Below, in pieces: positions 15,490-35,419 of a stretch of 64,000 nt of DNA; position 1 is the stretch's first letter; every line of letters begins with the position of its first letter. The translations under genes were made by a program, and so were the position numbers. Source of the DNA: a bacterium. GTDB lineage: Bacteria; Campylobacterota; Campylobacteria; Campylobacterales; Sulfurimonadaceae. The notes beneath the pieces were generated by a model. It searched no databases and was not told the DNA's origin. It saw only the letters and a list, made by a program, of their open reading frames with translations. The stretch lies in assembly GCA_018822665.1 (NCBI GenBank), contig JAHJJX010000008.1, positions 62,001-126,000 on the forward strand. The letters run 5' to 3'.

Positions 15490-15977
15490 AAAAAAGCCTT
15501 TGTAGGACGGGGTAATCCGCTGGAGTGATGAAGCCATGTCCAACCAGCTTCATTTTTATTAATGCCGTAAATCGGATCGCCAAGCATAGCTTCCATGATG
15601 TAGCTTAAAAGAGTTTCTATCCAACGCTCTCCCCATCTCTCTTGGGCAATGTGAATGAGTACATTTTGTCTTTGGGTTGGGGTTAATTTTATGTAAGTTG
15701 TTTTGTAGAGCGCGACAGCTTCTTCATTGAGCCACTGCACTCCGTTTCGTATAAAGTTTTTTTCTTCTTCGCTGACACGGCTGTGATGAAAAACGGTTGA
15801 TACATATGCTGAAGCGTTTGCACCTAAACTCTTGGCATGTGGAAATAAATCTTCCTGCACCGCCGTTATTGTCTGCAAGGGAGTCACTGCACCAAAAAGC
15901 TTCGTTCCCGACATAACAAGAACAGCCCCTGTAAAAAAAGTTTCTTTTAAAAAAGTTCTACGTGATTTTAAAACCAA
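15486..15977 (-). CDS. Gluconate 2-dehydrogenase subunit 3-like protein with Tat signal
   Basis: A small subunit of about 163 residues from a proposed TTG at 15977, which has GGAG about 7 bases upstream; a farther TTG at 16010 is also open. The N-terminus has the twin-arginine motif SRRTFLK followed by a hydrophobic stretch (TGAVLVMSGTKLFG). In this family the Tat signal on the small subunit carries the signal-less flavoprotein across the membrane, which fits the overlapping GMC gene. Later blocks such as NFIRNGVQWLNEEA and PIYGINKNEAGWTWL are typical of the family. A perfect copy of the iterated word encodes Phe-Pro-His-Ala-Lys. Confidence 0.85.
   Translation of the reverse strand: MVLKSRRTFLKETFFTGAVLVMSGTKLFGAVTPLQTITAVQEDLFPHAKSLGANASAYVSTVFHHSRVSEEEKNFIRNGVQWLNEEAVALYKTTYIKLTPTQRQNVLIHIAQERWGERWIETLLSYIMEAMLGDPIYGINKNEAGWTWLHHSSGLPRPTKAFL
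15834..15844 (+). repeat. Perfect GGCATGTGGAA word
   Basis: In the small-subunit gene; the coding strand reads Phe-Pro-His-Ala-Lys. Flank CTCTT. Confidence 0.85.
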
Positions 15978-16022
15978 AATTCTCACTCCGTTTAACTCTA
16001 ATATCGTCAACCGATTTTATGG

Positions 16023-17309
16023 CTACTCATAGCCTCCACATCTTACACATCGAGCTTTAAAGTAAGGTTCTGTAGTAATTTTATCATAAGGGTTTACATC
16101 CACTTCAAGATTTTCCGTAACTAAATTATCAAGATATCCGCATGCATTAAGCTGTAAATTTTTTTGACTGCAATTTTCACCGAAACACAGGTTGGATGAT
16201 GAATGAAACTTGTTTGCACTTTTATATAAAAAAGTATCATTCACGGCGTATGTACTATTATTGCCAATATCGACTATGGTAAGAAGTTCGCTTATTGTAG
16301 GGGTTCTCCAGTCATCATATCCGGCTAAATTTAATTCGCTGCAATATTTTACAGCTTCACCCCATTTGTATTTTTTATTGATAACATCACTGTTATCTTG
16401 CCACATTAGGCTTGTTGCTCTATCAACGACGACACCGTTTTTATTGTCTCTGCTAAAATTAAAACCGCCCACTTCGGCACCGCTTACACATTTAATATAT
16501 GAATCTTGTATTTGAATAACATCCGGCGCTTTAGTTTCAATTTTTTGTACTATAAACGGCCCATCTGTACTGACTAGTGTGCCATTGATATCAAATGTAT
16601 CTATATACGAAATTGTAGTAGATACACTTGTTTTAAAGTAAAAATAAGTTTTTTTGTCCAGTATCTGCAGTAGGTAACCGTCTCTTGCGTATGTCGGCTC
16701 TTGCGATACACCAACCAATACTCCGTATATAGGATTCGTTTGATTTAAATCATATTCTTTATCTATTTTATTGATACTAAATTTATTTTGCTCAAACCCC
16801 ACAACATACGTTTTTGAAGTTTTTTGAACTTCATTACTGCTATAATAAAACCCTTCGGGCACGGTATTGAAAGATAAATCCACCAAAGTATCCCTTGCAT
16901 TTAAAGCAAGCAATGTAGTGAGTTCATAAATATTTGGCAGTCTCCAGTCACTTTTGCCGGCTAAGATTAAATTTTCACAATAATCCTTAGCCCTGCTTAC
17001 ATTATTCTCTAATTGAACTTCATTATCTTGCCAATAGAGATTATAATTAGCATTATAAACTGTTCCATCAGCCATATTCTTAAAATCTCTATCAGCTCCG
17101 CTTCTATTATTGAAATATCCATCATCATAATAAAATGTTGAGGGCTGTGTAGTTATATCTTCATATACAAAGGTATCCGTTTGAGCGGTTTTAACAGGGT
17201 ACTTTAAAAAAGCATTTTGGTCACAACTAGACAAATCTTTATTTGATGAAGCACCTTGCTGACAAGCACTAAAAAATATCAAGATAAAAATCAGTAAAAT
17301 TGCTTTCAT
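16023..17309 (-). CDS. Outer-surface lipoprotein with two DUF1566 (Lcl-type) domains
   Basis: A 428-residue predicted lipoprotein: hydrophobic signal then lipobox FFSAC with C16 as the lipidated residue. Two DUF1566 domains are seen, each with the signature WQDN...Y(C)...L.LAG..DWRLP/TP..YEL: the first around residues 92-135 (LYWQDNEVQ, SDWRLPNIYEL) and the second around 302-350 (LMWQDNSDV, DDWRTPTISEL). In Legionella, Lcl-type domains take part in adhesion and biofilm formation. It is the last gene of the cellulose-type operon, 2 bases after the SH3 gene, so a surface or matrix-binding role is inferred. Confidence 0.8.
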   Translation of the reverse strand: MKAILLIFILIFFSACQQGASSNKDLSSCDQNAFLKYPVKTAQTDTFVYEDITTQPSTFYYDDGYFNNRSGADRDFKNMADGTVYNANYNLYWQDNEVQLENNVSRAKDYCENLILAGKSDWRLPNIYELTTLLALNARDTLVDLSFNTVPEGFYYSSNEVQKTSKTYVVGFEQNKFSINKIDKEYDLNQTNPIYGVLVGVSQEPTYARDGYLLQILDKKTYFYFKTSVSTTISYIDTFDINGTLVSTDGPFIVQKIETKAPDVIQIQDSYIKCVSGAEVGGFNFSRDNKNGVVVDRATSLMWQDNSDVINKKYKWGEAVKYCSELNLAGYDDWRTPTISELLTIVDIGNNSTYAVNDTFLYKSANKFHSSSNLCFGENCSQKNLQLNACGYLDNLVTENLEVDVNPYDKITTEPYFKARCVRCGGYE

Positions 17310-17311
17310 GG

Positions 17312-17767
17312 CTATTCTTTGTCTTTAAATATAACTTTTGCACTATCTAATGAAAAATACTCTTTATGCGTATCAACATTCTCTTGCTTGTGAGTTTGCT
17401 CAACGATTTTGTCCGTAACTTTTACAAGCTCTACAGTTACCTCTTTTGGAACATTTTCTTTACTACTTTCGAGTACCGGAGAAGGAGTTTCCTTCTCTAT
17501 TATCGGCTGTTCATATCGCGGAGCTACAATCTTCAGTGCATCTTTTTTCAAATAGCCATTTTTGGTTTTACACCACTGATATTGGTCACAATAATAGATT
17601 TGCACCATATCCCCTTTTTTGAAATAATCCGCTTTTTTATCAGAAGATGGATATGGTTTATTGTACAAATCACAACTTTGTGAAATGATATGCGCATACA
17701 CCTGCGTTTTATCCACCTGAGCGTTTAATGACAAAATCATTAAAGTTAATACTATTAAATATTTCAT
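17312..17767 (-). CDS. Exported SH3-like domain protein
   Basis: A 151-residue protein with a signal peptide (about residues 1-17, ending SLNAQ) and one bacterial SH3-like region (residues ~30-80) with LYNKPYPSSD, FKKGDMVQIYYCDQYQWCKT and GYLKKDALKIV. The remainder is Glu/Lys/Val-rich and probably disordered. Four cysteines or so could form disulfides. Such domains often bind cell-wall or matrix components. It lies in the cellulose-type operon between a FlgO-like lipoprotein and the DUF1566 lipoprotein. Confidence 0.75.
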   Translation of the reverse strand: MKYLIVLTLMILSLNAQVDKTQVYAHIISQSCDLYNKPYPSSDKKADYFKKGDMVQIYYCDQYQWCKTKNGYLKKDALKIVAPRYEQPIIEKETPSPVLESSKENVPKEVTVELVKVTDKIVEQTHKQENVDTHKEYFSLDSAKVIFKDKE

Positions 17768-17777
17768 AATATCTCTC

Positions 17778-18350
17778 CTATTGCTGCGTAAGCAGATACA
17801 TTATTTCACATGTCATTGGAAGCTTTTTGGCATAAGAACCTTCTATAATACCTGTTTGTAAATCAATAAGCTTCACAAATACAATTATCTCTTCCTCCGT
17901 ATAAGTATATGTTCCTACTACCGCTCTATTTAATTCAAAACTATCCGCACGAAGCAATTTAATATCTCTGGACAATACGCGAAGTCCATTGCCTGAAATT
18001 TCAAAGTATTTTGAAATCTCAGCCTCAACCACCTTGGAGCTATGTTTTTGGATTAAAGAATTTTTTATGCTATTTGACAAAATATATCCAAGTTTTGAAT
18101 AATTTTGAAGCGATGTCAAATCTACAAAATCTGTAACAATGAAATTTTTAGGTTCAACGCTAGCTGTTTTAAATAAAGCATCCACCGCATTATCAGCCAA
18201 AAGAATATAATCTACATCATAATCGTAATATTCTTTTATACCGCGATTTACTTCACACTCTTTTTTTTCATAACTTTTTTTATTGACTACTGCACTCCCA
18301 CATCCACCCAATAAGAATGCACTCAATATTATATAAATAACTTTATTCAT
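17778..18350 (-). CDS. FlgO-like lipoprotein (second copy)
   Basis: A 190-residue predicted lipoprotein (lipobox LLGGC, C17). The middle follows the FlgO pattern seen in the neighbour: IVTDFVDLTSLQNYSKLGYILSN, then ELNRAVVGTYTYTEEEIIVFVKLIDLQTG. FlgO proteins are outer-membrane lipoproteins first seen with the Vibrio flagellum, but the fold is widespread. Here the pair lies in a cellulose-type operon, so a role in building or gating the outer-membrane export site is more likely than a flagellar one. It overlaps the first copy by 8 bases. Confidence 0.75.
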   Translation of the reverse strand: MNKVIYIILSAFLLGGCGSAVVNKKSYEKKECEVNRGIKEYYDYDVDYILLADNAVDALFKTASVEPKNFIVTDFVDLTSLQNYSKLGYILSNSIKNSLIQKHSSKVVEAEISKYFEISGNGLRVLSRDIKLLRADSFELNRAVVGTYTYTEEEIIVFVKLIDLQTGIIEGSYAKKLPMTCEIMYLLTQQ

Positions 18351-18927
18351 CTAAATCCTTCCAGCAATATTCACTCTTTGAACAACGAGACGGCACTAGC
18401 TGTACCATAAACTTGTCTTTTTCCTTAATTATCTTTGGTTTTTGAGTTTCTGTGAATGGTATGTATGCACTCGCTGCCGAAACTAAAATATTGCTATTTT
18501 TTTCGATGATTCTTACATTTACGATAACGCTGTCGTCCATTTTAGAATACGTACCCACGAGTATTAAAATATCTTTATCTTCAATGGATTGAATTCTGGC
18601 TCTGTTTAATTTAAATTCGCCGTGTTGCGTTTTAGTCACTATATCATCGCCTCTAAATTCGATAACATGATTTCCTCTGAGCGTCATTTGAGTCATTAAA
18701 GATTCAGAAAAGAGTCTTCCAAAATTTGAACTCTCTTTAAAGTTGTTTAAATCAACTAAAGAAGTCAGTACCAGCTTGTGATTTCTATAATCCAACATCC
18801 CTTTTGAGAGTTCATCTGCAACAATTTTAACACCACTTGGAAAAGTTGGCGCATAGTGCAAAGATTTTGACTGACAACCTGTCAGCAAAAATAAACCAAT
18901 CACCAATATTAATATATTTCTCATCAT
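18343..18927 (-). CDS. FlgO-like lipoprotein (first copy)
   Basis: A 194-residue predicted lipoprotein (lipobox LLTGC, C18). FlgO-type blocks are LVLTSLVDLNNFKESSNFGRLFSESL and ILVGTYSKMDDSVIVNVRIIEKNSN. It is clearly related to the following gene in overall pattern, so the two look like a tandem duplication that has diverged. It starts 8 bases after the bcsC-like gene. Confidence 0.76.
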   Translation of the reverse strand: MMRNILILVIGLFLLTGCQSKSLHYAPTFPSGVKIVADELSKGMLDYRNHKLVLTSLVDLNNFKESSNFGRLFSESLMTQMTLRGNHVIEFRGDDIVTKTQHGEFKLNRARIQSIEDKDILILVGTYSKMDDSVIVNVRIIEKNSNILVSAASAYIPFTETQKPKIIKEKDKFMVQLVPSRCSKSEYCWKDLDE

Positions 18928-18935
18928 TTTATCCC

Positions 18936-21900
18936 TTATTTTATAATTTGATCTACTCTATGATTTAATCTAAAAGTATTAAAAGTTCTATACTTATTCG
19001 ATTCAAATCTATAGACAAGTGCAAAAGAAGCCTGTTTCACTTCATAACCGTTCATTTTTTCCATCGAAAGTCCTGATATCAAATCTAAGCTGTCTGTTAA
19101 ATTATACCCCAACTGTATCGCACCCTTATATGTAATACCGCCATCACTGTAACCGTTTTGGACTCCTGCCAATGCTACATCGTTGGACAATGGAAATTTT
19201 TCAGCACTTTCGACAATAAAACCTTCAAATCCTAATGCTAACTTTGCTTGATAATATAATTTACTATTCACCATATCGCCAAACTGGGTATAAAGAGATC
19301 CTAACCAGAAATCTTGCGGACTAAAATATCCCCCATGCCCATAGGTAAATAAATTAGTATTTTTTTCATAACTGTCATACGCGATAACAGCTCCAATATC
19401 CACATAAGAAACTGAATCTACTTGAGGATGATAAATCGCAGTAACAGTTGATTTAAACTCGCTGTTATCAATTATATTCAAACCAAATATTTGTGGATAA
19501 TATCCAACATTTAGTGACAATATTATGTTGCCATCATAACTCACGCCTGCTTCAAATCCTCTTTTTACTACCCTTCCCCAGTTTACTTCCAAGGAATCCT
19601 TTGTCGCTGTCTCGCCAACAAAAGAGAGCATAGTTTCATCTATTTCTTTTTGTTCAAATAAAAGGCTAAACCTCCACTGTTCGTATGGTATATAGCCGGA
19701 TAAAATCCAAGTTGCTTCAGGGGTAATCTTCGCACCGACAGGAGTAAGACCAATTTGAGCTTTAATATTATTATAATCAATTCCTATTTTTGGCATAAAC
19801 CCGATATCACTTGTTAAATCATTCTCTTTGGTGGTTGAATTGAGTCCAAAATCTATCGGTGTTCCACCATTGTCCGTCAAATATCCATTATACAAATAAA
19901 GTAAATCTCCATCAAAGTACATATGATATTTATCTTCTTTGTCGTAATAATCGTAATCTATCGGAACAACATATTTATCAAATCTGTTTTTCCCGCTTTC
20001 TCCGCTTTGTGATTGATAATACATGCCGACTGACACTGAATTTTCATACTCTTCTTTTTTAAAACTCTTATTAATTTCGACAAGCAGCGCATCTCTTTTT
20101 TTAGATTCAGGCAGTTTTAAAAGTATCTTTTTTGCGCTCTCTTGTTTATATAAATCCATATAAAGAGAAGAAATTAGTAAAGCATCTCTTTCGTTATCTA
20201 CTACTCTAATTCTATCTAAGGCTTCAATCGCTCTATCATCTTCTTGATTTTGGTAGCAATTCAGAGCATACGCATAAACATCTTCCGTACTTTCACCAAA
20301 AAGAAGATTTATTTTTGCAAACTTTGCCTTAGATTCATCATATTTTTGGAGTGAATAAGCGCACCAGCCACCCATTCTGTAAATATCTTTATCCTTGTGC
20401 TCATCTTCAATAATATTTGAATATCTGTAACACATTGAATAGAGTTTATTTTTATAATAGCTGTACAGCCTGTCTTTTTCATAATCTGCTTTAAATATAT
20501 CCAACTCTTTTTTATTTAATGGGTATGTATTGTAGGCATGTTTTAACTCTTTATCTAATTCATCATCTTTTTCAAAATCTTTTAGCGCATATAAAAGAAT
20601 AATTTCAAAGTTAAAATCATCGCTCTTATACTTTTTTGCTTCCTTATATGCCCTTATGGCCTCTGTATTTCCTTTATTTTTATATATATTTCCAATATCT
20701 AAATAAAATGCAGATTTCGTGTCATTGTCATCAATCTTTTCTATCCAAGAGATAGCATTGTTCACATCTTTTTTATTTGCATACACATACGCTCGACATC
20801 GATTATAAAGTTCTTTTTGATAATCCTGAGTCAAATTGGAATCACTTAGTCTTTGTGTGCAGCTCTCATAGTCTTTGTGTTGAAATTCGTACAGAGCAAG
20901 TGTGTATTTTGCTTCCAATGAATTTTTATCTATCAATAAAATATCGGAGGCTAGGTTTTGCGCGTCATCATACTGCTGTAAAATAACAAACAACTGCATC
21001 TGTTTTTTCAGCACTTCAATATTTTGAGGATATAAACTTATCAAATAATCAACTATATTTTTAGCTTCTTTATAGTTTTTGATTTTTATATATTCATCTA
21101 CAGTTAGAAAGTTTTCTAAAAGATATGGATTCGCTATTCCTTGTTTATTTTTAGTAGCTTCGAACCAATATTTGGCGGTATCTAACTGCTCCAATGCAAT
21201 GGCACTCCTCATAGCTACTGTTGACAATTCATCCGTTTTTTCGGTTTCATACAGTTTTGAAGCAAGATAGAGCGATTGTTCATACATTTTTAAATTAAAA
21301 TAACTGTACATCATGCCGCTGTAGCAACTGTAATCTTTTTTTATTCTACATGACTCTTTAAAAAAAACCAAGGCTTGCGTTGGAGCCTCTTCAACAAGCT
21401 TCCATCCATTTTCCAATGCTCTGCTGTATTCTATGTCATTATATAAATCTATAATTTTTTGTGAATACTCAAAATAACCCTTGAGCTTATCCAATGCTTC
21501 TTGGTATCTTTTTTGTTTATAATATTCTGATGCAATTGACAATACATTTGCAATCAGTAAATTTTTTGCCTCTTTTTCTTTATTAATATAAGGGGCTAAA
21601 ACCATATTTGCCTCTTGATATTTTTTCAATTTAACTAAATCAAGTGCTTTTAAATAATCAATATCGAAAATTTTGTTTGCTAATTTGTAAGTTTTTGCCA
21701 ATTGTGTTGCATTTTCATACTCTTTTAGTTCTATTAAATCAGCTATCTCTCTCTCATTTATTATCGTATGGAGTTTTGCATTTTTAGATAAATGAGCATC
21801 TACTATATTATGCGCAGTGATATAATTTTTCTTATTTAATTCATTATACATGTATCCAGATGCTATATCTTTGTATAAACTATTTGCTTTTTTATCTTTT

Positions 21901-22406
21901 TTATATTCTTGCAAGACTTTTAATGCTTTATCATATTGTGAATTTTTCATCAATGCCAATGCATAAGCAAACGCATGTTCATAATTATTTACTTCATTAT
22001 AGTTGTATTCAAATATCTGCAATGCTTTTTTATAATCTTTTCTATCGAATGCTGCATATCCAAGATAAAACTCATTTGCAGTTTTATATTGTTTGCTCTG
22101 TGTATTTTCGTTATACTCTTTATTGATTATCAAATATGAGACATTTTTATCATTAAACTTTTCGATATTTTCTTGCATCTGTTCCGTAGAAGATGAATCA
22201 TTACATCTTAAAGACATGTCGTCATTATTTTTAATTATATAACAATCAAAGCCGTCAAGCTTTAGCTTTAATGCTTTTTTTTGAATAACATCCAAATAAT
22301 TACTTTTTGCATTTAATACCTCAAAAGTAATGTCTATATTTTTGGAATAAACAAAAGTACTAATTAAAAGTAGTAAAAAGATATATCGAATATGCGTAAT
22401 AGTCAT
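18936..22406 (-). CDS. BcsC-like outer-membrane exporter: TPR superhelix plus beta-barrel
   Basis: A 1156-residue protein with a signal peptide (ending VYSKN), a long run of TPR-like helical repeats (about residues 110-790, for example FYLGYAAFDRKDYKKALQIF and LYEFQHKDYESCTQRL), and a C-terminal beta-barrel (about 800-1156) with strands such as GDLLYLYNGY and KAQIGLTPVG. This is the layout of BcsC, whose periplasmic repeats bind peptidoglycan and synthase while the barrel exports glucan. AAGGAG nine bases before the ATG supports the start even though it overlaps bcsZ by 47 bases. Confidence 0.85.
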   Translation of the reverse strand: MTITHIRYIFLLLLISTFVYSKNIDITFEVLNAKSNYLDVIQKKALKLKLDGFDCYIIKNNDDMSLRCNDSSSTEQMQENIEKFNDKNVSYLIINKEYNENTQSKQYKTANEFYLGYAAFDRKDYKKALQIFEYNYNEVNNYEHAFAYALALMKNSQYDKALKVLQEYKKDKKANSLYKDIASGYMYNELNKKNYITAHNIVDAHLSKNAKLHTIINEREIADLIELKEYENATQLAKTYKLANKIFDIDYLKALDLVKLKKYQEANMVLAPYINKEKEAKNLLIANVLSIASEYYKQKRYQEALDKLKGYFEYSQKIIDLYNDIEYSRALENGWKLVEEAPTQALVFFKESCRIKKDYSCYSGMMYSYFNLKMYEQSLYLASKLYETEKTDELSTVAMRSAIALEQLDTAKYWFEATKNKQGIANPYLLENFLTVDEYIKIKNYKEAKNIVDYLISLYPQNIEVLKKQMQLFVILQQYDDAQNLASDILLIDKNSLEAKYTLALYEFQHKDYESCTQRLSDSNLTQDYQKELYNRCRAYVYANKKDVNNAISWIEKIDDNDTKSAFYLDIGNIYKNKGNTEAIRAYKEAKKYKSDDFNFEIILLYALKDFEKDDELDKELKHAYNTYPLNKKELDIFKADYEKDRLYSYYKNKLYSMCYRYSNIIEDEHKDKDIYRMGGWCAYSLQKYDESKAKFAKINLLFGESTEDVYAYALNCYQNQEDDRAIEALDRIRVVDNERDALLISSLYMDLYKQESAKKILLKLPESKKRDALLVEINKSFKKEEYENSVSVGMYYQSQSGESGKNRFDKYVVPIDYDYYDKEDKYHMYFDGDLLYLYNGYLTDNGGTPIDFGLNSTTKENDLTSDIGFMPKIGIDYNNIKAQIGLTPVGAKITPEATWILSGYIPYEQWRFSLLFEQKEIDETMLSFVGETATKDSLEVNWGRVVKRGFEAGVSYDGNIILSLNVGYYPQIFGLNIIDNSEFKSTVTAIYHPQVDSVSYVDIGAVIAYDSYEKNTNLFTYGHGGYFSPQDFWLGSLYTQFGDMVNSKLYYQAKLALGFEGFIVESAEKFPLSNDVALAGVQNGYSDGGITYKGAIQLGYNLTDSLDLISGLSMEKMNGYEVKQASFALVYRFESNKYRTFNTFRLNHRVDQIIK

Positions 22407-23364
22407 CTTTATTTTCTCCTTTTAATTTTTTAATTTTAGAACTGAACGACTCTGTATTGTTAAAATATTTATCGAGCATATTGTAAATACTTAAATGCGC
22501 AACAGAATAGTTATACATACTAATTGTTCCATTCTTCAGGTCTATTACTCCAAAAACGGCATCTGCTGCTTTCATACTCTGTATATACCTTTTATAGGAT
22601 TCTAAAAGTTTATCCTTATCTTGAATATCACTTTTTAATAGATTATACGGGATTCTCAAAGCGTCATACCCAAAAGAACTATTTTTTGTTAATTCAACTT
22701 TTAAAGTTTTTTTATCTATCTTTATCCAGTCTGGATGCAATCCCAAAGATGTAAATCTTGCCTCTTGAAGAAGCTGTATTCCATGCTCCTTTAATCTGCT
22801 CCATGTATCGTCATCATCATATTGTTTAAACTTATCAAATATAAAAAAAAGATAATAAGAAAGATTTATTTCAAAATAGCTGTCTTTTACGAAACCATGT
22901 TTGCCGGGAAGCAAATAAAGACGCTCTTTTTCTTCTATAATAAGATACTTTTTTATGCTCTTCATAATATTAAAAGCTTCTTGTTTATAATGAATTTTAT
23001 TCGTCTTTTCAAACATCAGTAAACAATCATAAGCTATCCACAAATCTCCGTCGGTTGCATTATTTAAATCTAACACATGCCAACTCTGATTGCTGTCTTT
23101 ACCCCATTTCCAACTAATAAGTCCAAAATCATTTATTGTAAGATTATCTTTATACCATTTATATATTTTTTCAAAACTTTCAACATCATTATGCATCAAA
23201 GAAAGGTATAAAGCGTAGCCCACGGATTCACTATGCGTTATATCACTATTCACTCTATCTATTACTCTTCCGTCTTTAGCAACGTAGAGTGATTTGTATT
23301 CACTCCAGTCTGCATGCAACAAAGTATTCATAATAAAAAGAATAAAAAGTAATTTATTCAGCAT
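22360..23364 (-). CDS. bcsZ: Glycoside hydrolase family 8 endoglucanase, BcsZ-like
   Basis: A 334-residue periplasmic endo-beta-1,4-glucanase. After a signal peptide (residues 1-18), the family 8 catalytic acid is E46 in HSESVGYAL and the second acidic residue is about D105 in NNATDGDLWIA. BcsZ trims cellulose during export and is needed for normal fibre assembly. It overlaps bcsB by 11 bases and bcsC by 47. Its presence shows that the polymer made by this BcsA is a beta-1,4-glucan or close relative. Confidence 0.9.
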   Translation of the reverse strand: MLNKLLFILFIMNTLLHADWSEYKSLYVAKDGRVIDRVNSDITHSESVGYALYLSLMHNDVESFEKIYKWYKDNLTINDFGLISWKWGKDSNQSWHVLDLNNATDGDLWIAYDCLLMFEKTNKIHYKQEAFNIMKSIKKYLIIEEKERLYLLPGKHGFVKDSYFEINLSYYLFFIFDKFKQYDDDDTWSRLKEHGIQLLQEARFTSLGLHPDWIKIDKKTLKVELTKNSSFGYDALRIPYNLLKSDIQDKDKLLESYKRYIQSMKAADAVFGVIDLKNGTISMYNYSVAHLSIYNMLDKYFNNTESFSSKIKKLKGENKDDYYAYSIYLFTTFN

Positions 23365-26230: not shown

Positions 26231-28443
26231 CTGTTTTCCTTAACTAAAAAGTTTTTTATCTTAAAAAATGTAAAGATGTACGCATCTTTAAACATTGCAT
26301 TTTTAAAGCTTTGCTTCATAATATATGCAAAGCTCATTAGTGGCGACATGATAGGTTTTGCATCTTCAATCTCTTTCCATTTTGTTGTATTCCCGTATAT
26401 GATTTGTATCAGATTTTGTCTGGTGACTATATTGTCCTTAATATCATCAAATACAAAAACAAGTTTTTTACCCCAAGCAAATGCTTTTAAAAATTTTGAT
26501 GGAATTCTAAATGGCTTTCCGTCAATGTCATTGAGTTCAATTTCTACTTTTGAAAATTTCAATAAAATCTCTTCATATTTTATTGAGCTGTCTTGTGGGG
26601 TTATATTTAATCCGCCTTCGCTTATATCTGTGATAGAGCCTGCATAAGATTCATTATTAACTATAATATTGCAACTCGCATGAATGGGCACTCTTATACT
26701 TCTTCTAACCTCTCTTTTTTCACTTACAACCCCGATTGCCGCAACCAATAACAATATATTTAAAAGATTCCAAGCACTCGTCATAAGAATAACTTCTAAT
26801 TCATCTGAATAGAAATAAAGTCTATAGATAGATGCGAAAAATCCCAAGAAAACAAAAGTAAACACAATAACAAAAGGAACTGCCAATTCTGAAGTATGAT
26901 TATCCATCATCTCCTGTCCTTTTGGCGTAACATTAAAGGTTGGCTTTCTTGGATTAAGCAAAACAGAAATAATAGCAGGCAGAGTAAAAAACGCTAAAAC
27001 TGTTTCGTATAATTCTGAGAAAAATGGATTTCTAACTTTTGCATATAAAAAATAGGACATCATAACCGCCATGGTCATATGCGGTACAACATAAGCGAGC
27101 ATCTCAATGCCATTTGCATTGTATATGCGAAGTCCAAAAAATAGATATAACAATGGTGCGATGTAAAAAATCACCCTTGAATATGCGAAAAACCAGAAAA
27201 AACTTGCACTCAAATAACTTAATTGCTGGTACCATTTTAATTTTTTAGACAGCAAAGGATTTCTAAGTAAAAATATCTGAACCATCCCTTGTGTCCATCT
27301 TATTCTCTGAATAACCAAGGCTCCAAAACTTTCTGTTTGAAGCCCCCTAACCATTGCTTCACTTATGTATACACTTTTATAACCCTCATCATGTAATTTA
27401 ATAGCAGTTTCTGCATCCTCGGTAATTGTATCACCGGATATTCCACCAACTTCATCAATATATTTTCTTTTTAAAATAGCTGCGGACCCGCAAAAAAATG
27501 AACTTTCCCAAAAATCATGCCCTAGCTGAATATTTTTATAAAACATATCATTTTCACTTAAAGCGGTATCTCCCATCCTTAAATTTCTTTCAATCGGATC
27601 AGGATTATAAAATGCGTGAGGTGTTTGAACTAAAAATATTTTTTCATCTTTTAAAAACCAACCCGTTGTTTTTTTTAAAAATTGCTTTGCCGGGACATGG
27701 TCGGTGTCCAAAATTAATATGAGTTCCGATTTTACACTTTTGAGTCCATGATTGAGATTACCTGCTTTTGCATTTTCATTTCTTTCTCTTGTTATATAAG
27801 TTGCACCTACAAAATCACAAAACTTGCGAAGAGCTGCCTTTCTTTCAATAGCTTCTTTGGATTTTACCGGATCAGTATCATTACATTTCTGATCAGTTCC
27901 ACCATCATCAAGTAAATTAACACTGAATTTATCCTGTGGGTAATCAATTGCCAAGGCAGCAAGAACCGTATTTTCGATAACTATCTGCGGTTCATTATAT
28001 GTAGGAATGAGAATATCAACACAAGGCCACTCCTCTTGCGGATAATTTTCTAAGTCTATAGGCTTTCGATTTAATAAGTTTAAAGAAGTGAATATCCCAA
28101 GAAGGTAGATAATGATTGCAAAGACTTCAGCTAAATATAGCAGTATAGCACCGATAAAGTCAAAAAAACCATCATATGTTAAGGATTGAAAAGTTCTCCA
28201 ATAAATGTATCTCATAACTATTATAAAACCCATAAATTTTATAAACAAAACAACATAATCGGGTAGGTTTTTAAACTGAAAAGCGACAAACATAACGAGA
28301 ATAGCGCCATAACCAATAGCAAATTGAGTATCAACGTTATATTGAGAACTGATGAGTAGATATGTTATTAAAAACAAAAGTGCAAACATCAGCACTCTTG
28401 TTATAGTATTTGAGTAAAGATAATCTACAACTTTTTCATACAT
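26227..28443 (-). CDS. bcsA: Cellulose synthase catalytic subunit BcsA (UDP-forming), c-di-GMP-activated
   Basis: A 738-residue inner-membrane processive glycosyltransferase. GT2 motifs are present in order: the UDP-binding DDGGTD, the DxD-type LDTDHVPA, the catalytic TEDAET and the acceptor motif QRIRW. Four or so spans precede and follow the GT domain. A PilZ domain near the C-terminus carries RRSIR (RxxxR) and DISEGG (DxSxxG), so c-di-GMP activation is expected. It overlaps bcsB by 4 bases and follows the SPOR-like gene by 8. Confidence 0.95.
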   Translation of the reverse strand: MYEKVVDYLYSNTITRVLMFALLFLITYLLISSQYNVDTQFAIGYGAILVMFVAFQFKNLPDYVVLFIKFMGFIIVMRYIYWRTFQSLTYDGFFDFIGAILLYLAEVFAIIIYLLGIFTSLNLLNRKPIDLENYPQEEWPCVDILIPTYNEPQIVIENTVLAALAIDYPQDKFSVNLLDDGGTDQKCNDTDPVKSKEAIERKAALRKFCDFVGATYITRERNENAKAGNLNHGLKSVKSELILILDTDHVPAKQFLKKTTGWFLKDEKIFLVQTPHAFYNPDPIERNLRMGDTALSENDMFYKNIQLGHDFWESSFFCGSAAILKRKYIDEVGGISGDTITEDAETAIKLHDEGYKSVYISEAMVRGLQTESFGALVIQRIRWTQGMVQIFLLRNPLLSKKLKWYQQLSYLSASFFWFFAYSRVIFYIAPLLYLFFGLRIYNANGIEMLAYVVPHMTMAVMMSYFLYAKVRNPFFSELYETVLAFFTLPAIISVLLNPRKPTFNVTPKGQEMMDNHTSELAVPFVIVFTFVFLGFFASIYRLYFYSDELEVILMTSAWNLLNILLLVAAIGVVSEKREVRRSIRVPIHASCNIIVNNESYAGSITDISEGGLNITPQDSSIKYEEILLKFSKVEIELNDIDGKPFRIPSKFLKAFAWGKKLVFVFDDIKDNIVTRQNLIQIIYGNTTKWKEIEDAKPIMSPLMSFAYIMKQSFKNAMFKDAYIFTFFKIKNFLVKENR

Positions 28444-28451
28444 GCATGAAC

Positions 28452-29192
28452 CTACGGTAAGAACTGTTCATTGATATTAAATTTATTTTGCTTATCTGTA
28501 TTGTTGCTTTTACTTTTAGCTATCTCTTCTGCCCAAAATGAATTTTTTTCCGGTTGTTTTTCATGAACTCTTACTTCGATTTCATTGTCAATTTCTGCTT
28601 GATTTTGAACAACTTTTATTGGTTCTTTTTCTACATCTTGGCGATCATCTTCTTCATATATAGGTATAAAGCATTTTTTGCAATCTTCCCATAAAGTCTT
28701 TTCTACACTCTGAGACGTGTAAGACAGTTCTCTCTTTTTAATATACTGCTTGTCTTGAGTCTTTTCTTCTTCCTGAGATACATCCCTATACGTTTGATTA
28801 CTTGCTTCTTGCCTTGATACATCATTGTATATCGGCTGAACAACTTCTTTATAAGCATTGTTGTTTATCTTGGTATTTCTTGTGTATATAGTTTTTTCGT
28901 TGATAAAATCACACTTTCTTATAAAAGCGTCCCTCACCGATTTTCTTACAAATGCAAGATCAGCCCCGGCATCGCTGTAATTTAAATAGTCACCGACTCT
29001 TAAAACTAAATATCTGCCGCGACCCTCTACGCGAATATTGGAAAACTGATTATATTTTTCACTTTTCGCTTCATTCAGAATTAAATTCCTCTCAGACTCA
29101 TCCATACTCGAAACTTGGATACAATAGTCAGCTTCTAACACAATAGATGCAAATAATAACATCACAATTAATTTAATTTTTCTCAACCCCAC
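28452..29192 (-). CDS. Exported SPOR-like protein, first gene of the cellulose-type operon
   Basis: A 246-residue protein with a signal peptide (LIVMLLFASIVLEADY) and one SPOR-like fold (residues ~22-95: YCIQVSSMDESER, NIRVEGRGRYLVLRVGDYLNYSDA). The rest is polar, Gln/Glu/Asn-rich and probably disordered. The start is uncertain: a GTG at 29192 and a TTG at 29186 (with GGGAG upstream) are both possible. SPOR domains bind denuded peptidoglycan, so it may place the synthase complex at the cell wall. The same fold appears twice in the divergent gene at 29476. Confidence 0.72.
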   Translation of the reverse strand: MGLRKIKLIVMLLFASIVLEADYCIQVSSMDESERNLILNEAKSEKYNQFSNIRVEGRGRYLVLRVGDYLNYSDAGADLAFVRKSVRDAFIRKCDFINEKTIYTRNTKINNNAYKEVVQPIYNDVSRQEASNQTYRDVSQEEEKTQDKQYIKKRELSYTSQSVEKTLWEDCKKCFIPIYEEDDRQDVEKEPIKVVQNQAEIDNEIEVRVHEKQPEKNSFWAEEIAKSKSNNTDKQNKFNINEQFLP

Positions 29193-29332
29193 ACTCCCAC
29201 TCTTTTATATAGACGTAATTTGTTTATCTAAAACTAAAGTGTGACTCCAGCTTGACAATTAGCCACATTTTCCATTGTAATAAACGGAAAATAATCTAAA
29301 GCCACTACTCTATTTACTTTGCTATAGTTTCC

Positions 29333-29444
29333 TATAATTGTAACATACAATAGCGGTAATTCAGTTAGTTTTATAACAAAAAATTAATTTTCACAACAAA
29401 AAAATGTTTCCAAAACAGGGAAGTTTTATAATTTTTGCTATAAT
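29333..29444 (+). promoter_or_regulatory. Promoter region of the TolC-like gene
   Basis: A TATAAT at 29439-29444 preceded by TGC (extended -10) would start transcription near 29451, 25 bases before the TTG at 29476. A second TATAAT lies at 29333-29338. The rest of the 29193-29475 divergent region shows no other strong signal. Confidence 0.6.
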
Positions 29445-29475
29445 TACAGACAAATTAATATCACAAAGGTGTATC

Positions 29476-31338
29476 TTGAAAAATATATTATTTTTTATAC
29501 TTTTTTTAACACTACCGTCTTATCTTTTTTCAAAAAGCTATTGTATTTATATTGGAACCATTGACATGGATACGGAAAATAAAAGTAAAATTCATTCAAT
29601 CCTCTCGGATGTTGCGCATCCCTCTATTAAAATAAATGATAATAAATTATCTATCTATAGCGGTGAGTTTAAAAAGTACAGCGATGCAAACAAGCTTTTA
29701 AGCCTTACAAAAACCAGATATAAGGATGCTAAAGTAACATCTTGTATTGATACAAAAAAATATAATAATGAGTTTCTTTTTAAAGATGATTCAAATGATA
29801 AAATTCCTCTCAGCAATCCAGTCGCTAGCGTTATGAAAAATAAATCCGATAATAACACCGACTATTGCCTCAAAGTCTTCGAGATAGATTTAATAAAAAG
29901 CTCAAAACAAAAGGATAAAATTCAATATATTTTGAACCGATTGCCAAATTCGCATACAAAAATTCAAGCAGACAAACTTGTTGTCTATAGTGGAATTTTC
30001 AAATCTCTTGAAAGTGCGGAAGTAATCGCAAGTATAGTAAAAAGAGAATTCAAAAACACTATAGTTTCAACATGCGCTTTAGAAGTGATGCAAGAAGAAT
30101 CTACCTACACAGAAAACAAATATGATGATAAAGTACATGCCATAAAAGAAATAACTGCTGAAAATTTCATTATAGACTCTTTGGATGAAAAAGGATTAAT
30201 TAGTGCAGAAATTGCATCAGAAACCCCAAGCCAAAACAAAGATGAAATTCAAAAATCGGATATTAGACATGCATTTGATACACAACGAGAAGATCAATTT
30301 AATGGATTGTACCTCAAATTCAATGCAGCGTGGGATACGCTTAACAGCACCTCTGCCTATGACGCTCGACTAGAATTTGACATATTCGATCAAGGGTATT
30401 ATCAAATCAAAAAAAACAATGAAAAGAATGCAGTCGAAAACAAAATAAATTTCTTTAAAACTCTCAAAAATATTGAAATATTAAAAAAAGAGCAGGAACT
30501 TTTAAAAATTAAAAAATATTCAAACTCTATTGATGTTTCAACTCTTCTTTTAAAATTACAGGTAATAGAAAACAATCTCAATAGTGCAAAAATCAGACTA
30601 GAAAATGGTCTTATAACAAATTATGAATACGATATTTACGAACTGTCTCTTCAACAAATAAAAGATGAATTGCTACTGTTTAAAAATATGACATTGTTAA
30701 AAATTCCAAAAAATTTATGGATTCTTTTAAATCAGATAGAAAATATAAGGCTAATAGATGAAGATATCTTAATTGGTGCGCTTGAAGAAAATAGTATAGA
30801 CCTTAAACTAGCACAGACATTGAAAGAAAAGAAGCCTTTACTGGAAGATTGGAGTGATAAACTAAGGGTAAATGTTTATGTTGGACAAAGAAAAATGTAC
30901 CTGTCTCAAGACCAAAATCTTATAGGTGTTGAAGCAAAAATACCTCTTTCAAATTATACAAGAACAAATGAACTGGATAATATTCAAAATACTATTGCAT
31001 CCAGTCAAGTTATACTTCAACATAGCCAGACAAAAGAAATTTTAAAAGACAGCATTGCAACTTTTAAATATAAACAACAAAAACTCAAAACATATAAATA
31101 TGAGCTTATGGGGATTAAAAAACATCTCAAAAATTTAAATATTATCAACAATTCTGCATTTGCTTTATATGCAAATTCAAGTGTTAACGATGAACAAAAA
31201 AGTATAGATAACTATTTGAACAAATATACACAAATTCAGCAAGAGAGAATAAACACATATAAAGAACTCATCAACATAATGCATTTAATCCATTCAAGCA
31301 ATATAAGTGATATTTTACTTTATGCTATAGATAAATAA
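29476..31338 (+). CDS. TolC-like outer-membrane factor with two N-terminal SPOR-like domains
   Basis: About 620 residues from a TTG at 29476 with AAAGGTG upstream and directly followed by a signal peptide (KNILFFILFLTLPSYLFSKS). An ATG at 29404 is open but would lie upstream of the predicted transcription start. Two SPOR-like repeats follow (SYCIYIGTID...AKVTSC and DYCLKVFEID...TIVSTC), then a TolC-type alpha-helical coiled-coil region (about residues 270-600: GLYLKFNAAWDTL, YDARLEFDIFDQGYY, LENGLITNYEYDIYEL). This fusion is unusual. It is convergent with the Alg8-like gene (stops 2 bases apart) and next to an HlyD-like Alg44, so it may be the outer-membrane exit for the second polymer. Confidence 0.7.
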   Translation: MKNILFFILFLTLPSYLFSKSYCIYIGTIDMDTENKSKIHSILSDVAHPSIKINDNKLSIYSGEFKKYSDANKLLSLTKTRYKDAKVTSCIDTKKYNNEFLFKDDSNDKIPLSNPVASVMKNKSDNNTDYCLKVFEIDLIKSSKQKDKIQYILNRLPNSHTKIQADKLVVYSGIFKSLESAEVIASIVKREFKNTIVSTCALEVMQEESTYTENKYDDKVHAIKEITAENFIIDSLDEKGLISAEIASETPSQNKDEIQKSDIRHAFDTQREDQFNGLYLKFNAAWDTLNSTSAYDARLEFDIFDQGYYQIKKNNEKNAVENKINFFKTLKNIEILKKEQELLKIKKYSNSIDVSTLLLKLQVIENNLNSAKIRLENGLITNYEYDIYELSLQQIKDELLLFKNMTLLKIPKNLWILLNQIENIRLIDEDILIGALEENSIDLKLAQTLKEKKPLLEDWSDKLRVNVYVGQRKMYLSQDQNLIGVEAKIPLSNYTRTNELDNIQNTIASSQVILQHSQTKEILKDSIATFKYKQQKLKTYKYELMGIKKHLKNLNIINNSAFALYANSSVNDEQKSIDNYLNKYTQIQQERINTYKELINIMHLIHSSNISDILLYAIDK

Positions 31339-31340
31339 GG

Positions 31341-34022
31341 TTATTTTTTAACTGTTATGTCTTGGGCAAAATTTCTCTCTCCGTCAGGCGGCGCCCATTT
31401 TGCGTCAGGTGGAGTTAAGACTATTCCGTCCCATAAGTGAAATGACGGAATATCAAATCTGATATCTCGGATATTGTTATCATGAGAATATCCGCCATGA
31501 AGGTTAATATCAACCTTCATGTCCAAGTTTGCAAATATATTGTTTGCGCTACTCCATTGAATTGTTAAATGTCTTATATTTTTGATAGTTGAATTTATTA
31601 ATTGTGAACTAAAAGCTCTTGAGAACTTCACATATCCATTTCCGCCTTTTCCTTTATTCCAAGAACCATTAATATATAAATTTTCTCCGATACATCCATA
31701 AACGTTTTCAAACACCAAGGGATGACTTCCTGCATTTAATATTTTTAAATTCTTTATATGGGAATTTGCGGCATATTCCAACCTAATCATATCAACCATA
31801 AAAGAAGGAAATAAGTTTTGATATATTCCGACACTCTCTTGAATATGATGCCCCTCAATATCTTGATAGATTGTAAAGTCTTGCAAGCTTATATTTTCAA
31901 TCATATTCAGAGTGTATATCTCACTTTTATTTTTTTCAAATTGTGTAGTTATCCTATTGTTTAAGTAGAGTATGCCTCCATGTGCAGATACAATCGGTGC
32001 TATCTCTTGTCTTAAATACGGATATTCTTTCCTCCAAACAATTGAATTTATAGAATTAAAAAAAATCTCATCATTGGGCTCCCTTATCTTTACCCATTTT
32101 ATATTGCTGCTGTCTTTTAAATCTGTATCTAAAATGCTATCTCCATATTTCACTTCTCTTTTTAAATGTCCTATCTTTTTTAATTTTTCGCCTTTAATAT
32201 ATATTGCGGCCACGTCTTGAGTCTTTAAATGAGACACGACTACAGTCTCATCTTTTGACATACCTTGTATAGTGATATTTGATCTCCTAATTTCTATCGG
32301 TGAATATAAATCAATGGTACCTTTGGGTAAAAGAATCGTACTGTTCTCTTTTGCATTATTTATTAGTTTATTAAGAGCGGTGGAATCATCTTTGTTGTCA
32401 TCAGCGATAACTCCGAACTCTTTTGCATCAAGGATAATCTCTTTTTTTTCTACTTTTTTATCCTCTTTTAATATATCAATATCAGGAAAAGCTATGGCAT
32501 CATGCGAGATAAGCATTATAAAAAAGAAAAATACATATGACATAGTCATTAAATAATCCGGCATATAACTAAATAACGGATGCTTAATTTTTGCTACACT
32601 GTCATCACTTTTTTGAGTCTCATTTCCTTTTGACCATTGCTGGTCAGATAAATTAAAAAGTGCTTTTATCTTCACAAATGAACCTATCCACTGCCCATAG
32701 AGCATCAGAGGTATGGTTTTCAGAGAGACAGGGTGTCCATTGTACGCAATAACCGCTAACTGAAATGTTCTTACATAAAAAATCCAGACGATATAAAATA
32801 TAAAATAAAAATATGCCTTAAATATTCCTAAAATTATTGCCCCGCTTATTCCAACAAGCGATGTCCACATGGATATTCTTTGATCCAAAATAGCCCACCA
32901 AATGAAAAAACTTTTTATTTTTTTAGGGCCTAATGCGAGGGCTCTATTTGAATTTCTAAGCGTATTTCCATACCATCTATAGGGCAAAGAACGACTAAGC
33001 TCTAAAAAATCAGCATCCCTGCTCTCTAAGGAGTAACACAAAGCATCGGGAAGATATCTCATGTTCCAGCCATCTTTCAAAAGACTGAACCATGTTGTTT
33101 TATCATCCCCCATAAGAAATCTAAATTTTCCATGCATAACTGTTGTGATAATATCATTTTCAACGCGTTTAATAAATTCATCTTTTATTATAATATCTGT
33201 TCTATATGCTGAGAGCCTACCCGTCAAAGTTAAAACTTTATTAGAAAGTGAATGTGACTGAAAAAGCGTATGCCTTTGTCCAAATTTTAAATTAAACCAA
33301 TCTTTGTACCAATTTGAATTAGTGTGTATAAACGCTGCTTCATTTGTAGTTACGGCGCCCAGTTCTTTATCTATGGCAAAATGAGGCAAAAGCTTTTGAA
33401 AAAAACCACGCTCTAGATAGCTGTCTCCATCCATAAAAAAAGTTACACTATTGTAATCCGTATCTTTTTTCAAATATCGTCTCGATATTGCACGCATCGC
33501 ATGCCCCATGGCAATTCTCTTCCCCTCTTTTTGATGCTGAAAAACAAGTTCAACCTTATCAAAAGCATAATGGGCCTTACAGGTTTGATAAATAACCGAA
33601 TCTTCATAAGGGTCACCAGAGGTGGAGACAACAATAGTTGCGCTTGATGGTATAGTCGCAAGTTCATTCATAATCGATTTAAATGTCTCTATACTTACCC
33701 AAGATTCCTCTTTATAGGATGGAATAGAAAAATAAACATGTGAAGGATATTTTGATTTTTCATCAAGTTTATCTATTTTTCTTTTTAACCCCGGATAGAC
33801 AAATTTTGCATAAATAAAAGCTCTAACGAAATTTATAAGCAACCAGCCATATCTCCAACCGGCGAATATACCCAAAACTAAAATTGTTTCATTTTTTGCA
33901 TAATAAACATAGGGCCACATCACGTACAAAAGTAATGAACCGATAGTTATATAAACGAAAGAAGGCTCAATTAAACTTAAAAGAGCATCTTTTCTTCCAA
34001 ATCTTCTTTTAAGATATGCCAT
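31341..34022 (-). CDS. Alg8-like glycosyltransferase fused to a beta-helix (pectate lyase/epimerase-like) domain
   Basis: An 893-residue protein. The first ~520 residues are a membrane GT2 synthase: two N-terminal spans, FSIPSYKEES, the metal-binding MDGDSYLE, GRLSAYRTD, MGDDKTTW and SLPYRWYGN, then further spans. This order matches mannuronan synthase Alg8. After a last span (~residue 490) and a linker, residues ~545-893 form a right-handed beta-helix starting DAKEFGVIADDNKDDSTAL, the usual entry of pectate-lyase-superfamily domains, with repeats such as ISLQDFTIY and NLKILNAGSHPLVFENVYG. The helix would lie in the periplasm and could epimerise, lyse or bind the nascent chain. The polymer is inferred, not proven, to be an alginate-like uronan. 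Confidence 0.82.
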   Translation of the reverse strand: MAYLKRRFGRKDALLSLIEPSFVYITIGSLLLYVMWPYVYYAKNETILVLGIFAGWRYGWLLINFVRAFIYAKFVYPGLKRKIDKLDEKSKYPSHVYFSIPSYKEESWVSIETFKSIMNELATIPSSATIVVSTSGDPYEDSVIYQTCKAHYAFDKVELVFQHQKEGKRIAMGHAMRAISRRYLKKDTDYNSVTFFMDGDSYLERGFFQKLLPHFAIDKELGAVTTNEAAFIHTNSNWYKDWFNLKFGQRHTLFQSHSLSNKVLTLTGRLSAYRTDIIIKDEFIKRVENDIITTVMHGKFRFLMGDDKTTWFSLLKDGWNMRYLPDALCYSLESRDADFLELSRSLPYRWYGNTLRNSNRALALGPKKIKSFFIWWAILDQRISMWTSLVGISGAIILGIFKAYFYFIFYIVWIFYVRTFQLAVIAYNGHPVSLKTIPLMLYGQWIGSFVKIKALFNLSDQQWSKGNETQKSDDSVAKIKHPLFSYMPDYLMTMSYVFFFFIMLISHDAIAFPDIDILKEDKKVEKKEIILDAKEFGVIADDNKDDSTALNKLINNAKENSTILLPKGTIDLYSPIEIRRSNITIQGMSKDETVVVSHLKTQDVAAIYIKGEKLKKIGHLKREVKYGDSILDTDLKDSSNIKWVKIREPNDEIFFNSINSIVWRKEYPYLRQEIAPIVSAHGGILYLNNRITTQFEKNKSEIYTLNMIENISLQDFTIYQDIEGHHIQESVGIYQNLFPSFMVDMIRLEYAANSHIKNLKILNAGSHPLVFENVYGCIGENLYINGSWNKGKGGNGYVKFSRAFSSQLINSTIKNIRHLTIQWSSANNIFANLDMKVDINLHGGYSHDNNIRDIRFDIPSFHLWDGIVLTPPDAKWAPPDGERNFAQDITVKK

Positions 34023-34030
34023 TAAATATC

Positions 34031-35419
34031 CTAAATAAGCGGTCTATAAAACCACAATTTCACTCTTTCATTTAAAGGAAGTCTTACATCAGCCTCATCA
34101 AAAACAACTTTTATTGTGACCTCTTTTAGACTAACTTCATTTGTTATTTCTGACTCTGTGTTAAGAGAAAGGTTACCTATGGTTTCTATATGTGCACTAT
34201 ATGTTTTATCTTTGCTTGCGGAATAAACTTTAACACTCATCCCTTTTTGTATATCAACAGATTCTTCCTGCTGTAATTTACATACTATAAATGAAGCTTC
34301 ATTTGTTTCTATGACCATAACCTCATCACTTGAACCGACATAATTGCCTACGCGTGATTTGATAGCATAAACTACTCCCTCTGTCTCGCTAAAAACTCTT
34401 AAATAGTTAAGTTTATTTATAAGGTCTTCTCTTTTTAATTCAAGTTCTGTTTTTAAACTAATAATATTCGATTCACCGCCTTGAGATATATTTAATCTCT
34501 CAATGCTGCTTTTTTCTTGTAAATATTTTACTTTTGCTTTGGAATAATCGTTAGAAACCCTTTCTAAATCATAAATAGAAATAAGCCTGCTTTGATGAAG
34601 CTTGCTTGCGGATGTATATGATTTATAAGCCTTTTCCATATCTCTTTTTAGTATATTCAGTACTTCCGTATCCGGCTGAGAAGCTGTTTTTACTTCTTTA
34701 TACCGACTGTTTAAATCAGCCAGTTTCTTATCTATAATCTCAATCTGATTTAAAATCATCTTATCATCAAGTTCAAATAATACCGTTTTAGGCTGAACTT
34801 TATCCCTAACATTTACAGAGATTTTACTTACCTTTCCACTAATACTTGGAGAAATTTTTACAAAATTACCCGATACCGTTCCTATAGACCGATAGACATA
34901 CGCTGTATTATAATAAATTGTTGCAACAAGAACAATAAAAAATACTATCCCTATTCTGATGTATAATTTTGACCTCTTAACAAATTCTCTTTTTAAACTA
35001 CTTTCTTCTTCATCGCTTAAAACGACAGATTCTTTGATGGGGCTGTCAACAATTGGCTCGTTGTAGATACTTAAAAGCCCATCTATCTGATCGAGCTTCC
35101 CTTCAATAGAAAGCTCTAAAAATTCTCTTAAAACCCTTTTGTTTTTTTGAGATATTGTTGCAAATTCAAATCCGCTCACATCACCTCTTTTTACTTTAAA
35201 CTGAAGTTTTACGGGCATTTCTATTTTTGCTTCTTGCAGAGACAGAACTATGGACGCATCTATGATATCGTCCTTTTTTAATTCTTTATTTAGATTCTCT
35301 ACCCCCGCACCGGTCATAGACCAGTCTTTAGACCTATATGCAACAGCATCAATAACAATAATTAAAGGAATATCAACCCTATGAGCACGACGCATATGAT
35401 TTACTTCAATTGTGGCCAT
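34031..35419 (-). CDS. Alg44-like protein: PilZ domain plus HlyD-type membrane fusion domain
   Basis: A 462-residue protein. Residues ~1-110 are a PilZ-like domain (HMRRAHRVDIPL, with DWSMTGAGV in the place of DxSxxG). One span follows (about 155-175, YIRIGIVFFIVLVATIYY), then a periplasmic HlyD/biotinyl-lipoyl-like domain (ISGKVSKISVNVRDKVQPKTVLFELDD) with a helical hairpin. This is the architecture of Alg44, the c-di-GMP-binding co-polymerase of alginate synthase. It is directly upstream of the Alg8-like gene (8-base gap), which makes a two-subunit synthase. A promoter with TATAAT at 35458-35463 precedes it. Confidence 0.85.
   Translation of the reverse strand: MATIEVNHMRRAHRVDIPLIIVIDAVAYRSKDWSMTGAGVENLNKELKKDDIIDASIVLSLQEAKIEMPVKLQFKVKRGDVSGFEFATISQKNKRVLREFLELSIEGKLDQIDGLLSIYNEPIVDSPIKESVVLSDEEESSLKREFVKRSKLYIRIGIVFFIVLVATIYYNTAYVYRSIGTVSGNFVKISPSISGKVSKISVNVRDKVQPKTVLFELDDKMILNQIEIIDKKLADLNSRYKEVKTASQPDTEVLNILKRDMEKAYKSYTSASKLHQSRLISIYDLERVSNDYSKAKVKYLQEKSSIERLNISQGGESNIISLKTELELKREDLINKLNYLRVFSETEGVVYAIKSRVGNYVGSSDEVMVIETNEASFIVCKLQQEESVDIQKGMSVKVYSASKDKTYSAHIETIGNLSLNTESEITNEVSLKEVTIKVVFDEADVRLPLNERVKLWFYRPLI

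Follow-up and report, generated by a model that had tools for sequence, protein, structure and literature searches.

The locus analyzed here occupies positions 16,023 to 35,419 of a 64,000 nt stretch (hereafter the window) of contig JAHJJX010000008.1 from a member of the Sulfurimonadaceae, and carries a cellulose synthase operon beside a second polysaccharide synthase, an Alg8-type glycosyltransferase of family 2 (GT2) that is fused to a beta-helix domain. Our overall explanation, which we hold with evenly balanced confidence, is that the locus makes cellulose together with a cyclic di-GMP (c-di-GMP)-gated, TolC-exported and probably glucuronan-like polymer from the second synthase. The host genome of 2.5 Mb in 44 contigs is 99.99% complete, and its closest relatives are metagenome-assembled genomes (MAGs) of Sulfurimonas and Sulfuricurvum. 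The initial annotation, whose coordinates and open reading frames at 16023-35419 are correct, described the locus as a combination of cellulose-type and alginate-type synthases; the conserved arrangement, the PilZ motifs and the TolC exit hold, but alginate as the product is not supported.

The second synthase gene (31341..34022, minus strand) encodes an Alg8-type GT2 in residues ~1-510 (PF13641, 97.9 bits; motifs DGDS and GDDK) followed by a beta-helix (residues ~528-893; PF12708, 29.3 bits) specified by 31344..32441 on the same strand. The annotation as Alg8-like was thus right as to the synthase type but overlooked the C-terminal fusion, which is evident from PF12708, an alignment of 15 sequences and the AlphaFold2 model. 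The synthase shares ~31-36% identity with Alg8 proteins of algD loci. Fourteen relatives, one of them cut by a contig end, are co-linear with the fusion protein and come from Campylobacterota, Gammaproteobacteria, and Desulfocapsa and Pseudodesulfovibrio MAGs. The GT2 tree unites 17 of the 19 fusion proteins in a single group (100/99) and places six Alg8 proteins from the alginate side in another (100/99). Two of the fusions, both from Pseudodesulfovibrio, and a protein lacking the fusion lie outside the two groups, so the tree agrees with one origin of the fusion as well as with several.

The AlphaFold2 model of the beta-helix, built with 29 sequences, is a right-handed beta-helix with a pLDDT of 94.2. 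The nearest structures in Foldseek are polysaccharide lyases and depolymerases, represented by the Klebsiella K1 capsule lyase (7w1c, E 5e-11), followed by the mannuronan epimerases AlgE4/AlgE6 and RbmB, all at ~9-14% identity. The domain therefore shares the fold of these enzymes but differs in having at most ~14% identity to them, a conserved motif set of its own and no specific Pfam family. Its fold was identified only by the profile and fold searches; a PDB sequence search with the single fusion protein returned one weak beta-helix match. Across the 29 sequences, which cover the fusions as well as secreted, free-standing relatives from Streptomyces, Cellvibrio, Saccharophagus and others, 24 columns are invariant, among them K790, Y797, R817, H818, D838 and H842. 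Such invariance shared by fusions and secreted relatives is the pattern expected of an active enzyme, and lyase or epimerase activity on a polyuronate is predicted. According to hydropathy, the last transmembrane segment (~492-506) lies just ahead of the beta-helix and is preceded by a basic loop, so the domain is probably periplasmic.

The secreted members of this family (L018-L082; Actinomycetes, Cellvibrio, Saccharophagus and Paraglaciecola) are large and marked by two motifs, WNKGKGGNGY and D(I/L)NLHGG; a CBM2 occurs in some of them, they belong to no specific Pfam family, and they are possible candidates for polyuronate-active enzymes. Another locus (L118, G144:C61), where the GT2 is a separate protein and a polysaccharide deacetylase is encoded too, has a stand-alone beta-helix copy of 388 aa that adjoins two PL7 genes.

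The gene adjoining the fusion (34031..35419, minus strand) encodes an Alg44-like protein, consisting of an N-terminal PilZ domain (35114-35392; PF07238) with RxxxR/DxSxxG motifs and an HlyD-type membrane-fusion domain (HlyD_3), both above the Pfam cut-off. On the opposite strand, 29404..31338 (plus) encodes a TolC-type channel (~30301-31287) preceded by two N-terminal SPOR domains (~29539-29742 and ~29860-30075). In the AlphaFold2 model, whose confidence is moderate (pLDDT 71.8), two SPOR-like folds precede the TolC topology, in which a unit of beta-hairpin and long helix occurs twice (OEP fold). Foldseek places TolC-type channels in all of the top 39 positions among PDB matches (TolC, E 1.7e-9), and it also matches the SPOR domain of CwlC (TM 0.66). 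At the sequence level, the window protein has no Pfam match, Pfam OEP is found in 2 of 14 relatives, and a PDB search with the profile of the TolC-like family returned only coiled-coil noise. An alg44 partner adjoins the fusion in relatives and a TolC partner does so in most, in two different gene orders; the TolC homologue stands beside alg44 and the fusion in Campylobacterota and Gammaproteobacteria, mostly convergent with the fusion and co-directional with it in a second lineage. Neither the AlgE porin nor the AlgK Sel1/TPR lipoprotein is among the locus proteins, nor are AlgX and AlgL. The control alginate locus (L158) has AlgE, AlgK and an AlgG-like beta-helix. The earlier suggestion that a TolC-like protein replaces AlgK/AlgE is thus upheld by the fold search.

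As had been proposed, both halves of the locus bear a PilZ domain: those of BcsA and the Alg44-like protein exceed the Pfam cut-off and contain RxxxR and [DN]xSxxG motifs. The whole genome has 48 GGDEF matches and two PilZ matches, both at this locus. As far as PilZ-type receptors are concerned, c-di-GMP output in this genome reaches only these two synthases.

To which polymer the second synthase might be dedicated was considered from the sugar nucleotide dehydrogenases. The sole NDP-sugar dehydrogenase above its family cut-off in the genome is UDP-glucose 6-dehydrogenase (Ugd), which scores 633 bits to Klebsiella Ugd versus 118 bits to GDP-mannose dehydrogenase; AlgD, the GDP-mannose dehydrogenase, was not detected in this ~100% complete genome. 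All other fusion carriers with a detectable NDP-sugar dehydrogenase have Ugd, and AlgD of the GGSCLPKD type was found in no fusion carrier examined. In the family, class-1 Ugd is present in 9/11 fusion carriers versus 62/189 other genomes (p = 0.0017), and its gene adjoins alg44 in two related gammaproteobacterial MAGs. In the majority of the true alg8 loci found, algD is a neighbor; it adjoins non-fusion alg8 in L093, L158, L159 and L161, and the GT2 of the window lies outside the clade of such AlgD-linked Alg8 proteins. A PL7 (Alginate_lyase2) gene is located directly downstream of the fusion in the bcs-free lineage; PL7 matched nothing in the window genome, where the control also matched nowhere, so that this is no proof of absence. 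In Cellvibrio, a free-standing beta-helix relative is encoded among genes for KdgK, a fructuronate-reductase-like (UxuB-like) protein, the UxuA mannonate dehydratase, an ExuR-like regulator and a PL14 lyase. Those functions constitute the glucuronate branch of hexuronate breakdown. Ugd without AlgD, the PL7 neighbors and the Cellvibrio uronate cluster together favor a glucuronate polymer and suggest that the second product is glucuronan-like rather than alginate, leaving the alginate-type designation unsupported as to the product.

G032 was rejected as a fusion carrier and excluded from the count, because its locus L093 (G032:C186) is a genuine algD-alg8-alg44 set without the beta-helix, that is, a true alginate-type set within a Sulfurimonadaceae genome. 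L163, labeled AlgD on the GT2 tree, seemed to encode AlgD by the N-terminus but was not counted as an AlgD locus, as the open reading frame is an AlgG-like beta-helix with CBM96 and has no AlgD match.

The genes of the cellulose half are all on the minus strand, and the earlier calls of bcsA, bcsB, GH8 and bcsC-like genes are confirmed. BcsA (26227..28443) matches the equivalog TIGR03030 with 804 bits (cut-off 699) and has its PilZ domain at 26434-26709. BcsB (23354..26230; PF03170, 304 bits) contains an inserted lectin-like LamG_3 domain (24884-25303; PF13385, 43 bits). The GH8 endoglucanase (22360..23364; PF01270, 170 bits) is BcsZ-like, with PRK11097 at 173.8 bits lying under its cut-off of 299, and the BcsC-like protein (18936..22406) combines TPRs with an outer-membrane barrel (PF05420, BCSC_C, 128 bits). 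Judged by BcsB length, the LamG insert is suggested also in G135, G144, G005 and G187 and is missing in G002, G020, G045 and G082. The locus is therefore similar to bacterial bcsABZC systems in having BcsA, BcsB, GH8 and BcsC in one operon. It differs in that bcsD, bcsE/F/G and bcsN/K are not among the locus genes, that SPOR, two FlgO, SH3-like and Lcl_C proteins serve as accessories, that BcsB has the LamG insert, and that the cellulose genes are paired with a second synthase.

We compared the occurrence of the two halves in 200 Sulfurimonadaceae genomes. The fusion is present in 11, bcsA in 10 and both in 7 (Fisher p = 1.6e-8, a test that ignores kinship). The gene order alg44, fusion, tolC, SPOR, bcsA, bcsB, GH8, bcsC, flgO, flgO, SH3-like and Lcl_C is kept in all seven window-lineage genomes with informative contigs, as far as the contigs reach (that of G135 breaks within tolC), and spans three genera, down to 27-60% identity. 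The FlgO, SH3-like and Lcl genes were seen in dual loci of the sample only; the loci of G187, G045 and G082, which have bcs alone, showed none of them. These three genomes have bcsA without the fusion, while G170, G008, G026 and G192 have the fusion without bcsA, as is also the case outside the family; in Gammaproteobacteria, Desulfobacterota and a second Sulfurimonadaceae lineage, no bcs genes accompany the alg-like half. No further fusion was found in 347 sampled Campylobacteria genomes. The possibility raised by the initial annotation, that the halves occur independently in most genomes, is thus answered in both directions by synteny: they are linked within Sulfurimonadaceae and found alone elsewhere. 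Hence, the pairing is real but lineage-specific.

The remaining genes of the locus also lie on the minus strand. The product of 28452..29192 is a SPOR-like periplasmic protein with a conserved WxxCxxC in the alignment of relatives, weakly matched by PF05036 (E 0.028); of the two SPOR-containing proteins annotated earlier, this one is weak by Pfam and the TolC-like protein has two SPOR folds by AlphaFold2/Foldseek. Two FlgO-family lipoproteins, encoded at 18343..18927 (LTGC lipobox; PF17680, 89.9 bits) and 17778..18350 (LGGC lipobox; 70.1 bits), are the only FlgO proteins in the whole genome and, like the lipoprotein with two Lcl_C (DUF1566) domains at 16023..17309 (PF07603, 121 bits, two stretches), agree with the earlier description. 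The small secreted protein between them (17312..17767) matches no Pfam family and is SH3-like by eye only, so its SH3 label lacks Pfam support; in those dual loci whose reading extended this far, its gene occupies the same position. In Legionella, Lcl binds sulfated glycosaminoglycans through its C-terminal domain, the part that includes DUF1566 (PMC11162425), and by analogy the double Lcl_C lipoprotein may hold a polyanion at the cell surface. In two other genera, the Lcl gene is followed (L117:2311-4776; same place in L110 and L119) by a gene for an ~820 aa protein that was not seen in the window; the L117 copy, the only one scanned, has five Big_2 Ig-like stretches. TamB- and TamA-like genes (36033-41029) are located just upstream of the alg44-like gene on the same strand, and immediately downstream, at 13825-16010, the locus is followed by genes for a GMC oxidoreductase and a protein like gluconate 2-dehydrogenase subunit 3. 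A promoter/terminator scan of the divergent gap 29193-29403 stayed at chance level, and an Rfam scan of window positions 13000-42000 gave no match.

Taken together, the locus would make two c-di-GMP-switched matrix polymers. Cellulose would be made by the bcs half and exported via BcsC. In the other half, the PilZ-HlyD (Alg44-like) protein would activate the Alg8-type GT2, and the growing chain, most likely built from UDP-glucuronic acid into a glucuronan-like polyanion rather than from GDP-mannuronic acid, would cross the inner membrane and pass the synthase's own periplasmic beta-helix, which would cut or epimerize it. The HlyD part may then pass the chain to the TolC-fold channel, anchored to peptidoglycan by its SPOR domains, and the FlgO, Lcl_C and SPOR proteins probably serve to retain the exit complex, or else the polymers, at the outer membrane. 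Several observations weigh against a beta-helix enzyme acting on a glucuronate polymer. The top Foldseek identity of the beta-helix is only ~13%, beta-helix folds also include hydrolases and tailspikes, hydropathy is the sole basis of the topology, and the literature yielded no biochemistry for any member of the fusion family. Ugd is common in the family (71/200 genomes) and serves lipopolysaccharide or capsule too, the PL7 family is known chiefly for alginate lyases, and among non-fusion GT2s of known context the nearest are encoded beside alginate-precursor genes.

If the second synthase made a neutral or amino-sugar beta-glycan from UDP-Glc or UDP-GlcNAc, the beta-helix would be a trimming hydrolase, as many beta-helix enzymes are; the adjoining cellulose half and the cellulose-binding CBM2 of some relatives are in line with this. 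We regard such a product as unlikely in view of PL7 in sister loci, the uronate-catabolism cluster around the free-standing relative and Ugd adjoining alg44 in the gammaproteobacterial MAGs. An alginate system with another exporter, in which GDP-mannuronate is polymerized and the fused beta-helix is an AlgG- or AlgL-like enzyme, would account for the shared GDDK, the PilZ-HlyD partner as in Alg44, the PL7 neighbors and the epimerases among the fold matches. It appears quite improbable, however, given that GDP-mannose dehydrogenase was detected neither in the genome nor in the other carriers examined, that the GT2 clade is apart from AlgD-linked Alg8 and AlgK/AlgE/AlgX are missing from the locus, and that the beta-helix matches PF12708 rather than the AlgG-type NosD/Beta_helix, with no AlgG in the Foldseek top 50.

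The beta-helix might also be a binding or guiding module, since tailspike proteins share the fold and no catalytic activity is known for it; its invariant residues, common to free-standing secreted proteins, make this very improbable. Finally, the two halves could be mere neighbors, each polymer serving its own purpose. Each half does occur alone, and phylogenetic non-independence weakens the co-occurrence p value, but the strong association, the order kept in three genera and the restriction of the FlgO/SH3-like/Lcl genes to dual loci render this rather improbable. The reading of cellulose plus a glucuronan-like polymer thus remains our preferred one.

Known synthase-dependent polysaccharide systems use a porin-TPR exit and separate tailoring enzymes. 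The locus shares with the alginate secretion system of Pseudomonas/Azotobacter (Alg8-Alg44-AlgK-AlgE) an Alg8-type GT2 (DGDS/GDDK), a PilZ-containing HlyD-type partner and a periplasmic tailoring enzyme, here predicted, but the tailoring beta-helix is fused to the synthase, the TolC-SPOR channel replaces AlgE/AlgK, AlgK, AlgE, AlgX and AlgL are not among the locus proteins, and Ugd is detected in the genome instead of AlgD. As in tripartite exporters, an HlyD-type adaptor is combined with a TolC-fold channel, but here a polysaccharide synthase takes the inner-membrane position, and two SPOR domains are part of the TolC protein. The mixed-linkage beta-glucan synthase BgsA of Sinorhizobium is likewise a c-di-GMP-activated GT2 exopolysaccharide synthase; it has a C-terminal c-di-GMP domain of its own rather than a predictable one such as PilZ, and no beta-helix fusion is described for it (PMC5567048). 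Our literature search found no paper on this gene set or on glucuronan synthase genes.

We therefore regard the locus as a variant form of synthase-dependent exopolysaccharide machinery, for which a new polymer is a plausible product. More tentatively, and with somewhat less than even confidence, we propose a multi-phylum class of c-di-GMP-gated machines in which a synthase-lyase/epimerase fusion cooperates with a membrane-fusion protein and a TolC channel anchored to peptidoglycan to produce a polymer of glucuronate (or glucuronate/iduronate); in Sulfurimonadaceae this machine would have been joined to the cellulose operon to give a composite matrix. If true, the synthase-tailoring fusion with a TolC channel would be a different route for processing a charged polymer and leading it out of the cell, and would provide a genetic handle on bacterial glucuronan. 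With 48 GGDEF matches but only two PilZ domains, both here, this organism would be a simple place to study the links from a crowded c-di-GMP network to matrix production.

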